From positions 1 through 34,432 of the forward strand of contig JAQYVP010000165.1 of assembly GCA_030145485.1 (NCBI GenBank): DNA of 34,432 nt. The letters are read 5' to 3'. Under the pieces are notes generated by a model. The model did not search any database and was not told where the DNA came from. It saw nothing but the letters and a program-made list of their open reading frames with translations. Of this stretch, positions 11,242-21,675 are shown one piece after another. The position numbers and the translations under genes are program-made. Position 1 is the stretch's first letter, and the number at the start of each line of letters is the position of its first letter. The DNA comes from Chromatiales bacterium (lineage in GTDB: Bacteria > Pseudomonadota > Gammaproteobacteria > Chromatiales > Chromatiaceae).

Positions 11242-12969
11242 ATGACTCAACCTGTCAACCTGGTGCTGTGCTGGCACATGCATCAACCCTACTACCAGGA
11301 GGGCCTGGATGGCGAATACCGCCTGCCATGGGTCTATCTGCATGGTATCAAGGATTATACCGATATGGCCGCCCATCTGGAGAATAACCCGCAGATGCGC
11401 ACCGTGGTCAACTTTGCGCCGATCCTGCTCGAGCAGTTGGATGACTACTCCAGGCAATTGCGCGGCTACCTCAAAGATGGCGCCGCCATGCATGACCCGC
11501 TGCTCAATACCCTGGCGGGTGCTACGCCAATACCAAAGCACTCCGAAGAACGCCAGCAGCTGATAAACGCCTGCCGCAGGGCGCATGCGCCGCGCATGAT
11601 CGATCCCTACAAGCACTTCAGCATGCTCAGCCATATCTTTGATGATATGCCGGAAGAGATCCCTGAAATGCGCAGCTTCTGCCTCGACTATCTGCATGAG
11701 CAGTTTTTTATCGACCTGCTGATGTGGTACCACATCGCCTGGCTGGGCTGCTCCCTGAAGCAGAGTGATGTCGTCAAGTCGCTGATGGAGAAGAGCAAGC
11801 AGTTTTCACTGCAGGACCGTAAAACGCTGATCGAGGTGATTCACGAAGCGATAGCGGGATTGATTCCACGCTACAGGACGCTGGCTGAGAGTGGTCAGAT
11901 TGAACTCTCGATGTCCCCCTATGCGCATCCGATCGTTCCTCTGCTGAATGATTTCGCCAACATGCGCGACGCCCAGCCTGAAGACCCAGCGCCTGAAAAC
12001 AGTAGATATCCCGGAGGAGAGGAACGCTCCCGCTGGCACCTGCAGCATGGCATCGAGGTTTTTGAAGGTTTTTTTGGCCGCAAGCCCAAAGGTGTATGGC
12101 TTTCTGAAGGTGGTCTCAGCGATGACGCCATCACTCAACTCGATGAGATACATGTCGAGTGGACTGCCTCGGGTGAAGCACTGTGGAGAAACAGCTGCAA
12201 GCAAGAGAACAGCTGCACAGCAGATGATGCGACAGGAGTACGCCCGCTGTTTATGCCATACCGACTCAAAGAGTTGAATCCCCGGATCTATTTTCGTGAC
12301 GATGGTCTCTCGGATCTGATCGGTTTTGAATACAGTGACTGGCACGCGGATGATGCAGTAGCCGACTTTGTCAAACATGTCGAAACAATTGCAGATGGCC
12401 TTGGCGAAGATGCTGAAAAACATGTCATTTCGGTTATTCTCGACGGTGAGAATGCATGGGAATACTACCCGAACAACGGCCATTATTTCCTCGACGGGCT
12501 CTACAAGGCATTGATCAAAAGCAAAAAAATCAGGGTCTCTACTTATGCGGAGATGGATCATACTATTCGTGAAAAGCCACTCACCTCGCTGGTGGCGGGC
12601 AGTTGGGTGTATGGTACTTTCTCGACCTGGATCGGCAGCGAAGATAAAAACCGCGCCTGGGATCTGCTGGTTGATGCCAAACAGACCTATGATGAGGTGA
12701 CGGCTGGAGCAAAGTTTACTAAAGCGAAACGTGCGCGTATCGAAAAACAACTGGCTGTGTGTGAAAGCTCCGACTGGTTCTGGTGGTTCGGCGATTACAA
12801 CCCGTCAGGCAGCGTCAATGATTTCGATACACTGTTTCGCATACAGCTCAAGAGTCTCTATCAAATGCTCGGAAAAACGCCTCCTGAGAGTCTCGACTCG
12901 CCAGTCTCTGTCGGTGGCGGTGACATGGAGAATGCCGGCACCATGCAAAGGGGTTCCTCAGGCGCATGA
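11242..12969 (+). CDS. Glycoside hydrolase family 57 protein (alpha-amylase/amylopullulanase type)
   Basis: A 575-residue cytoplasmic GH57 enzyme with no signal peptide. The first family motif is HMHQPYY (H12-H14). The segment GVWLSEGG holds the candidate nucleophile E289, and VILDGENAWEYYP holds the candidate acid/base D401, by alignment with the known E/D pair of GH57 amylopullulanases. The type fits COG1449 rather than the GH57 branching enzymes, so alpha-1,4 and possibly alpha-1,6 glucan hydrolysis or transglycosylation is likely; the exact activity cannot be read from sequence. It sits 16 bases after glgC, so it is probably co-transcribed, and may supply debranching in a cluster without glgX. 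Confidence 0.88.
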   Translation: MTQPVNLVLCWHMHQPYYQEGLDGEYRLPWVYLHGIKDYTDMAAHLENNPQMRTVVNFAPILLEQLDDYSRQLRGYLKDGAAMHDPLLNTLAGATPIPKHSEERQQLINACRRAHAPRMIDPYKHFSMLSHIFDDMPEEIPEMRSFCLDYLHEQFFIDLLMWYHIAWLGCSLKQSDVVKSLMEKSKQFSLQDRKTLIEVIHEAIAGLIPRYRTLAESGQIELSMSPYAHPIVPLLNDFANMRDAQPEDPAPENSRYPGGEERSRWHLQHGIEVFEGFFGRKPKGVWLSEGGLSDDAITQLDEIHVEWTASGEALWRNSCKQENSCTADDATGVRPLFMPYRLKELNPRIYFRDDGLSDLIGFEYSDWHADDAVADFVKHVETIADGLGEDAEKHVISVILDGENAWEYYPNNGHYFLDGLYKALIKSKKIRVSTYAEMDHTIREKPLTSLVAGSWVYGTFSTWIGSEDKNRAWDLLVDAKQTYDEVTAGAKFTKAKRARIEKQLAVCESSDWFWWFGDYNPSGSVNDFDTLFRIQLKSLYQMLGKTPPESLDSPVSVGGGDMENAGTMQRGSSGA

Positions 12970-13040
12970 TCAATCCTTCATCACCAAATACACAGTTACT
13001 CTAGCGAGATCAGGTCTCAGACTTACGATGCAAAAAAACA

Positions 13041-13155
13041 TTATAGTCTCTCGCAAAGACGCAAAGCATGCCAAGAAAACCCTTTGCGTCTTTGCGTCTT
13101 TGCGAGAGTCATTACTTATATTTGACTCATTTGTGAAAATGTTGATCTCTCAAGG
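13041..13155 (+). repeat. CTCTCGCAAAG palindromic repeat, copy 2
   Basis: A perfect 19-bp inverted repeat, CTCTCGCAAAGACGCAAAG at 13048-13066 and its complement at 13090-13108, encloses 23 bases. The extension at 13120-13155 (TTGACTCATTTGTGAAAATG...CTCAAGG) is shared with copies near 1393 and 8685. It fills most of the 207-bp gap between the GH57 gene and malQ and ends 21 bases before the malQ start. Confidence 0.8.
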
Positions 13156-13176
13156 TTTACTAGTAATCTCTGAACC

Positions 13177-14538
13177 ATGCCTCCATTTCAAATGAACCAA
13201 CGCCGAGCAGGCGTCCTCCTGCACCCCACATCCCTGCCCTCGCATACCTTTGACGATGCGGAGAAGTGGCTTGATTTTCTGGCGCTTTCAGGCATCACTG
13301 TCTGGCAGATGCTGCCGCTTGGCGTCCCGCTGGACGGGCTCTGCCCCTACCAGTGCACCTCCGCATTCGCCACCAATCCGGTGCTGCTGGAAGAGATTCC
13401 GCGGCTGGATGAGAACGATCCCGGCTTTGCAGCATTTTCAGAGAGTCAGCATTTCTGGCTGGATGACTATGCGCTGTTCGTTCTCCTCAAGGAGCGTTTC
13501 TCCCAAAAAGCCTGGTATCAATGGCCCGGGGAGTATAAATCTCGCAACACTGCCACACTGGATGCATTACGCCGCTCACATCCGCAACAGTTGCAGCTGA
13601 TTTGCTGGGAGCAATACCAACTCCATGCCGCCTGGCAAAAGATCCGCCAGCATGCCGCCAAATTAGGAATAGCCTTGTTCGGCGACATCCCTATCTTTGT
13701 CGCCCATGACAGCGCCGATGTATGGGTGTGGCCGGAACTCTTCCTGCTCGATGAAGAGGGCATGCCGACCGTTGTCACCGGCGTCCCGCCGGACTACTTC
13801 GCTGAAACCGGGCAACGCTGGGGCAATCCCCACTATGACTGGGAACGCATGCAGGAGGATGGTTTCAAGTGGTGGCTGCTGCGGCTGCAGCATCACTTCG
13901 AATGGTTTGAGCTGGTGCGCATCGACCACTTTCGTGGTCTGGTTGCCGTGTGGGAGATCGACGCACAGTGTGAAACAGCAATTGATGGTTTCTGGCAGGA
14001 GACCCCCGGAGAACAACTGCTGACTGCGCTGCAGCAGAAGATAGGCGACTTGCCGCTGGTTGCAGAAGATCTCGGCATCATCACCGATGAAGTGATTGCA
14101 CTGAAACAGCAGTTTCACCTGCCCGGTATGGCGGTGCTGCAATTCTCATTCGACTACTTCGATGACAACCCGCACAAGCCCCGGAATATCCTTCCCTGTA
14201 CGGTCAGCTATACAGGCACGCATGACAATGATACGACGCTCGGCTGGTATCGCTCCCTGGAAGAAGATGAGCAACAGCATGTGCTCGAAGTCCTGGAGAT
14301 CGACTTAGAAAGCCAGGTCGTCGACGCCATGATTTCCATTGCCCTTGACAGCAAGGCCAACCTGGCTGTGATTCCACTTCAGGATTGCCTCTCGCTGGGT
14401 TCAGAAGCACGCATGAACACCCCCGGCACCATCGAAAACAACTGGCTGTGGGCATTCACCTGGGAACAGCTGGATATCCCGACAATAAGCCAAAAAACAT
14501 ATCGAAGATTGGAAGACTCCAACAGGATCATCACATGA
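13177..14538 (+). CDS. malQ: 4-alpha-glucanotransferase (amylomaltase), compact form
   Basis: A 453-residue GH77 enzyme that transfers alpha-1,4-glucan segments and releases glucose. RAGVLLHPTSLP opens the barrel, and the catalytic triad is visible as D250 (VRIDHFRG), E297 (VAEDLGIITDEV) and D350 (GTHDNDTTLGWY). GDIPIFVAHDSADVW and GVPPDYFAETGQRWGNP are also canonical. It is about 45 residues shorter than Thermus amylomaltase: the segment after LLEEIPRLDENDPGF lacks roughly 35 residues including the usual VDY stretch, and the Gly-rich loop after HPTSLP is shortened. ATG 13177 or 13192 could be the start; neither has a clear ribosome site. Its stop overlaps glgB. Confidence 0.92.
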   Translation: MPPFQMNQRRAGVLLHPTSLPSHTFDDAEKWLDFLALSGITVWQMLPLGVPLDGLCPYQCTSAFATNPVLLEEIPRLDENDPGFAAFSESQHFWLDDYALFVLLKERFSQKAWYQWPGEYKSRNTATLDALRRSHPQQLQLICWEQYQLHAAWQKIRQHAAKLGIALFGDIPIFVAHDSADVWVWPELFLLDEEGMPTVVTGVPPDYFAETGQRWGNPHYDWERMQEDGFKWWLLRLQHHFEWFELVRIDHFRGLVAVWEIDAQCETAIDGFWQETPGEQLLTALQQKIGDLPLVAEDLGIITDEVIALKQQFHLPGMAVLQFSFDYFDDNPHKPRNILPCTVSYTGTHDNDTTLGWYRSLEEDEQQHVLEVLEIDLESQVVDAMISIALDSKANLAVIPLQDCLSLGSEARMNTPGTIENNWLWAFTWEQLDIPTISQKTYRRLEDSNRIIT

Positions 14539-16714: not shown

Positions 16715-16858
16715 CAGCAATTCCCAATGTGCCAAGTAGGGTATCGACATTTTAAAAGACTTTTACCACGAAGCGCACGAAGGCCACGAAGAATCAACTG
16801 GATAGAAAATATCTTCGTGTTCTTCGTGGTGAGTCTCTTTCTACATTGAGAATTGCTG
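16715..16858. repeat. Family A element (CACGAAG palindrome with 16-bp terminal inverted repeats)
   Basis: A 144-bp element bounded by CAGCAATTCCCAATGT (16715-16730) and ACATTGAGAATTGCTG (16843-16858), inverted repeats with one mismatch. Inside are palindromically arranged CACGAAG units (CCACGAAGCGCACGAAGG and TCTTCGTGTTCTTCGTGG) and the side motif AAAAGACTTTTACCACGAAG. A second copy lies at 21391-21557 in the other orientation. No ORF is present. It follows the glgB stop by 14 bases and is most likely non-autonomous. Confidence 0.75.
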
Positions 16859-16868
16859 AGTAACATCC

Positions 16869-17008
16869 CAATAACTCCGTGCATTGAATAGATTTTGTTA
16901 TAAGCGATGTCATTGCGAGGAGCCGGAGGCGACGCGGCAATCTGGTTTGGAGATTGCCGCGGTCGCTTAGACTCCCTCGCAATGACAACATTCACACGGG
17001 CTTTTTGA
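16869..17008. repeat. Family B element, copy 1 (CATTGCGAG core)
   Basis: The outer arms are CAATAACTCCGTGCA (16869-16883) and a degenerate inverse ending in TTTTTGAGAACTTAC (from about 16992). Between them is an independent palindrome running from GTCATTGCGAGG (16909-16920) to CCTCGCAATGAC (16975-16986). The outer arms recur at 26230-26321 and 26346-26500, and weakly at 28742-28905, around different inner sequences. Together with the family A element it fills the 357-bp gap between glgB and the lipoprotein gene; no gene is seen. Confidence 0.7.
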
Positions 17009-17057
17009 GAACTTACATTTTGCAGGGTGCAATAAGCGACAGCGCATTGACGGACAT

Positions 17058-21322: not shown

Positions 21323-21578
21323 ACCACGAAAGTCACGAACCACACGAAAAAACACAACCATCCATTTTGTCAATATTTTGTGCTTTTCATCAACAATTCT
21401 AAATGTAGGTAGAGAGATATTCACCACGAAGGACACGAAGAGCACGAAGAGCACGAAGACATTTTTGTATCCATTTGATTCTTCGTTGTCTTCGTAATCT
21501 TCGTGGTAAAAGTCTTTTTAAGATGCTGGCACTTTATTGATACATAGAAAATTGCTAGCTTTTCATGACTTTCGTGGT
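21323..21578. repeat. Older ACCACGAAAGTCACGAA palindrome, split by a family A insertion
   Basis: ACCACGAAAGTCACGAA (21323-21339) is matched in inverse, with one mismatch, by TTCATGACTTTCGTGGT (21562-21578). Removing 21391-21566 (the inner element plus one copy of the 9-bp duplication) brings the two halves together as a CACGAA-type palindrome of about 80 bp. It occupies most of the 388-bp gap between the HAD gene and pnp, in which no gene is seen. Confidence 0.65.
21391..21557. mobile_element. Family A element, copy 2, with 9-bp target duplication
   Basis: The element starts CAACAATTCTAAATGT and ends ACATAGAAAATTGCTA. These are degenerate inverse copies of the terminal repeats seen at 16715-16858. 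The interior holds CACGAAG units and the side motif TCGTGGTAAAAGTCTTTTTA, also shared with copy 1 in inverse. GCTTTTCAT occurs directly before it (21382-21390) and directly after it (21558-21566), as expected of a target-site duplication. No transposase is encoded, so it would have been moved in trans like a MITE. Confidence 0.6.
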
Positions 21579-21616: not shown

Positions 21617-21641
21617 AAAAAAGGGACCTCGCGGTCCCTTT
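21617..21641 (-). terminator. Intrinsic terminator of the rpsO-pnp operon
   Basis: On the minus strand AAAGGGACC and GGTCCCTTT (21620-21628 and 21633-21641) form a 9-bp stem with a four-base loop, followed by a T run. It lies 35 bases beyond the pnp stop codon, oriented to end pnp transcription. Confidence 0.9.
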
Positions 21642-21675
21642 GATGCAGATTCAAACAGTCTCAGAGCAAGGCTTT

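Follow-up and report, generated by a model that had tools for sequence, protein, structure and literature searches.

CACGAAG-type palindromes are common in this bacterial group, and the literature searched contained no paper that explains how they spread; searches of papers for the strings CACGAAG, CACGAA and CAGCAATTCTC likewise returned nothing relevant. The window considered here, a stretch of 34,432 nucleotides that is one entire contig out of the 260 in a 3.02-Mb draft genome of a Chromatiales bacterium, carries such a repeat between a HAD gene and pnp. The original prediction read this repeat as a mobile element lodged within an older palindrome. Is it a transposon, and if so, what moved it?

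The nested element in the HAD-pnp gap

The element is 167 bp long (21391-21557), lies between perfect 9-bp copies of GCTTTTCAT on the plus strand (21382-21390 and 21558-21566), a sequence that occurs nowhere else on either strand of the window, and interrupts a ACCACGAAAGTCACGAA palindrome. It starts with CAACAATTCTAAATGTA and ends with ATAGAAAATTGCTA; the left terminal inverted repeat (21391-21407, plus strand; consensus YAGCAATTCTMAATGTA) is supported by the sequence, by counts of the terminal pattern and by flank statistics, and the right one (21541-21557, minus strand) by the sequence and flank statistics. Between them, the core palindrome at 21423-21507 consists of four CACGAAG units, a loop and three TTCGT units (inverted repeats I1 and I3; single-strand fold z -3.3) and corresponds to consensus positions 46-128 of a repeat family, here called family A. 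The element holds no ORF of at least 100 aa and is far below the size of a transposase gene. On the plus strand, the left outer arm of the surrounding palindrome (21323-21339, ACCACGAAAGTCACGAA) and the right outer arm (21562-21578, overlapping the right duplication) are complementary at 16 of 17 positions (inverted repeat I7), such that removal of the element restores the outer palindrome, as had been predicted. The remainder of the left arm, the loop and the beginning of the right arm occupy 21340-21381, as judged by alignment to the empty site described below.

Two other features of the window were observed alongside. A GGGACC...GGTCCC stem with a minus-strand T run (21617-21642), directly after pnp, is probably the pnp terminator, and an ORF translation at 12731-13195 that includes SRKDAKHAKKTLCVFASLRES points to a palindrome of the GACGCAAAG type downstream of the glycosidase gene.

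HAD and pnp are adjacent in three related genomes, G003, G001 and G005 (the G-numbered comparison genomes are drafts). The orthologous gap of G003 contains the intact palindrome with a single GCTTTTCGT and no insert, which is the empty site that the original prediction called for; G001 has the right arm of the outer palindrome, a different insert in its left part and no family A element, and in G005 the gap is without the palindrome. Both duplicates in the window read CAT where G003 and G001 read CGT, and this change therefore most simply predates the insertion: the sequence TTCGTGAC in the right arm probably became TTCATGAC before family A inserted, so that both duplicates carry CAT. The locus thus offers a relative dating, with an outer palindrome common to several species and an inner element that is not.

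Family A copies and the older palindrome

A blastn search of the genome itself gave 142 candidates, of which 40 places were scored; almost every one was a family A copy, either full-length or partial. The terminal pattern AGCAATTCTNAATGTA, with at most two mismatches, matched 94 times forward and 91 times in reverse (185 in all), against 2 for a reversed control, and on this ground the number of copies with YAGCAATTCTMAATGTA ends is estimated at about 90-100. Among 42 copies with both ends recognised, the flanks agreed at k=9 with an identity of 0.717, against 0.276 with shuffled flanks and a maximum of 0.341 over 200 shuffles, although the loci were chosen by best match and such copy statistics favour well-conserved copies. 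At k = 4-8 and 10-13 the identity was at or near background, and 11 of the 42 carried perfect 9-mer duplications. The 9-bp duplication pattern is not chance. The genome-wide expectation of the original prediction is hence borne out, and together with the G003 site so is its view of a nested, transposition-like insertion. Among 38 aligned copies, those of this genome diverge by about 1% to 14% from the consensus, and the insertions are therefore of mixed age. Family A has the attributes of a MITE: it is short and gene-less, with conserved terminal repeats, a duplication at k=9 only, insertion polymorphism and ends common to an autonomous element. Rfam gave chance-level matches only.

A second copy in the window (16715-16858, 144 bp) shares ends and core with the HAD-pnp element, as was noted at the outset. 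No 9-bp duplication is recognisable around it, and a family B repeat (GTAACATCCCAATAAC...GAGAACTTAC; 16860-17022, ends approximate and read by eye), which has many partial copies in sister genomes, abuts its right end. G001, G002 and G005 lack the element at this place, in a gap too diverged to align the precise site. Elsewhere, family B (GTAACTTCTCAATAAnCCCGTGCA..., GTAA ends) has inserted inside family A copies, at L031, L032, L044 and L048; two of these insertions show duplications of about 8 bp by eye (ATGCCTTC and ATTCCTTC), reminiscent of IS66-type ends. The idea that family A favours palindromic targets was considered and rejected: of 41 insertions, 8 restore an inverted repeat, the corresponding figures being 14 of 492 for random positions and 41 of 372 for positions that lack long ORFs (p = 0.09), and the difference is not significant once intergenic location is taken into account.

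It could be argued that the 9-bp repeat at this single site is a coincidence within a low-complexity region, given the repetitive, GCTTTTC-like stretches of the palindrome arms, but the genome-wide duplication statistics and the empty site refute this. An ancestrally occupied site, from which the element was later precisely excised in G003, is very improbable. Some transposons do excise precisely through short direct repeats; however, G001 too is without family A there and yet retains the right arm, and a loss would therefore need independent events or a loss in a common ancestor.

A third alternative, to which we give equally little credence, is that the CACGAAG palindrome itself is mobile, like a REP moved by a REP-associated (Y1) transposase, with the terminal repeats incidental. 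CACGAAG palindromes without YAGCAATTC ends do exist, both as the outer palindrome, family P (ACCACGAAAGTCACGAAAAG...), with many copies in the genus, and in the genomes G019 and G009. However, the family A duplications adjoin the YAGCAATTC ends exactly and at length 9 only, and an element of only 60 bp in G005 (L072:3010-3069), which has these ends and lacks the CACGAAG core, carries its own 7/9 duplication; this short element sits in a CACAGATG-type palindrome. Family P itself, made up of CACGAAA palindromes, lacks terminal repeats and, in 34 copies without family A ends nearby, gave no clear target-site duplication: the highest score for one reached 0.56, compared with 0.45 for controls, with a weak A/T-flank signal only. 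For family A, the duplications at the outer ends largely refute a mobile palindrome. The suggestion that CACGAAG-rich repeats are mobile thus stands for the unit bounded by YAGCAATTCT and does not extend to such repeats in general.

Family P copies occupy orthologous sites, each shared by two or three species (L168/L172/L181, L175/L191, L178/L184/L198 and L202/L203), and P is therefore the older layer, a family separate from family A. Eleven of 36 P copies, that of the window included, have grown past 140 bp through other sequence. At one intergenic place, G002 (L080:2840-3340) has a CACAGATG-type palindrome with nested repeats and G001 (L177) a P palindrome.

Candidate transposase and comparable elements

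A transposase with matching ends, the remaining expectation of the original prediction, was found in other bacteria, with 9-bp duplications, and not in the genome itself, where no relative was detected; as this draft is 93% complete, absence is unproven. A class-wide pattern search led to two genomes, G266 and G281. In the latter, Methylotuvimicrobium buryatense 5G, 1435-bp elements with CAGCAATTCTCAATTTA ends encode a 443-residue transposase and are flanked by 9-bp duplications (agaattgta and gcaggggYc, with agttaatac at a deleted copy), and a MITE in the same genome has the duplication cgaattttg. The closest IS ends, CAATGTGG of G266, differ from those of the MITE, CAATGTAC, and no duplication was seen at the best G266 copy (L136). 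Within the genus, the only remnant found, in the sister species G002, is a fragment of a decayed transposase together with a right end that matches. An ORF resembling IS200/IS605 TnpA, named by eye, lies within that remnant (L158:1723-2151). Beside the transposase in the G266 element is a DruA-domain (PF14236) ORF (L136:610-1578), to which an ORF ahead of a distant transposase in G003 (L160:1870-2676) bears a likeness by eye. Transposases of the IS4 type (PF01609) were rejected as partners; there are five in the genome itself and relatives, none with matching ends.

Eighty loci of the transposase were collected from bacteria and archaea, and 67 of them have a candidate CAGCAATTCTC-like end at either side with up to three mismatches allowed; in 52, neither end shows more than one mismatch, and the weakest of the 67 may be chance. 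These insertion sequences, found in several phyla, are mostly 1.4-1.9 kb long and many have perfect 9-bp duplications (22 of 62 scorable loci, against 0-2 at other lengths), leaving 40 of the 62 without a perfect one. Cyanobacterial plasmid homologues also carry the ends and the duplications. One homologue, WP_013335080.1 of Gloeothece verrucosa, bears the annotation 'ISNCY family transposase'; the name ISNCY denotes a holding category, and the group label used here comes from this single GenBank annotation. Pfam DDE_Tnp_1 matches are weak (24 of 34 members, best E 9e-7; the first member falls below the cut-off). Structure prediction gives the transposase a Tn5-like fold: the model (pLDDT 90.9) matches Tn5 transposase with Z 22.4 over 362 residues and an rmsd of 4.4, although sequence identity in the structural alignment is about 10%. 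Inspection of alignment A1 finds the acidic residues D135, D223, D224 and E347 invariant and the Y of the YREK motif absent. The Tn5/IS50 transposase also makes a 9-bp duplication.

Like family A, the CAGCAATTCTC-ended insertion sequences have terminal repeats from YAGCAATTCT and 9-bp duplications; unlike them, family A encodes no transposase (theirs is of about 440 residues) and carries the CACGAAG core. Being non-autonomous, it is therefore a MITE related to this ISNCY-annotated group and not a member of it. We are highly confident that family A is a non-autonomous MITE inserted in an older palindrome, most likely by a CAGCAATTCTC-type transposase acting in trans, given the directly observed nested structure, 9-bp duplications, empty site, and ends and duplication length common to MITE and IS. 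For the window copy, palindrome P would have been at the site first. A DDE transposase of about 440 residues, from the IS group with CAGCAATTCTC ends and 9-bp duplications, most likely moved this copy: it would have excised the MITE of about 150 bp by cutting at the YAGCAATTCT ends, and inserted it into the right arm of the pre-existing palindrome at a target cut with a 9-bp stagger, where gap repair would have produced the two GCTTTTCAT copies. The chemistry would presumably be cut-and-paste like that of Tn5.

Several described MITEs invite comparison. For Nezha of cyanobacteria, ISNpu3-like elements are the proposed mover (PMC3049150), and like family A it was assigned to an IS via common terminal repeats; CAGCAATTCTC-type IS occur in cyanobacteria too, though a shared IS group is a lead only. 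Chunjie of Geobacter uraniireducens is described as 178-235 bp long, in dozens of mostly intergenic copies with terminal repeats and duplications (PMC10969869), and by this description resembles family A. BrickBuilt of Porphyromonas gingivalis also has an internal repeated unit between terminal repeats (PMC4596501), but in a different host and as a 23-bp minisatellite, whereas that of family A is a palindrome of 9-bp period. Palindromes mobilised as REP/RAYT, on the other hand, make no target-site duplication, which sets family A, with its 9-bp duplications, apart.

The CACGAAG palindrome as possible cargo

Both this genus and G029 have YAGCAATTC-ended MITEs, flanked by 9-bp duplications, that contain the CACGAAG palindrome. 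In another genus, that of G024, homologous cores occur within MITE-like elements of an unrelated type, which have a short TA-rich duplication. Ten of 11 elements with TAGTGYCCRTCCGGAAAC-like ends collected from G024 carry the core (L319-L325, L327, L330 and L331), and the eleventh, L328, has a different core and essentially only the ends in common with L320. The family A consensus resembles the six aligned G024 elements only over its positions 46-128 (E down to 4e-17). The flanks of the 11 elements match at 2 bp beside the ends (0.86 vs 0.23), within a TANNTA-like target, and their insertion chemistry therefore differs from that of family A. Tentatively, and as something close to an even call, the palindrome could be regarded as an exchangeable cargo module, present within MITEs of unrelated ends or without recognised ends, and one and the same hairpin may have been captured by transposon ends that belong to unrelated families.

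If MITEs that differ in their ends truly contain homologous cores, several transposon families would have the palindrome as a common passenger, and such cargo pick-up would be one route by which the common CACGAAG repeats spread. For one class of these repeats there is now a defined transposon end, a duplication of constant length, a relative with the empty site and a transposase family that can be recognised.
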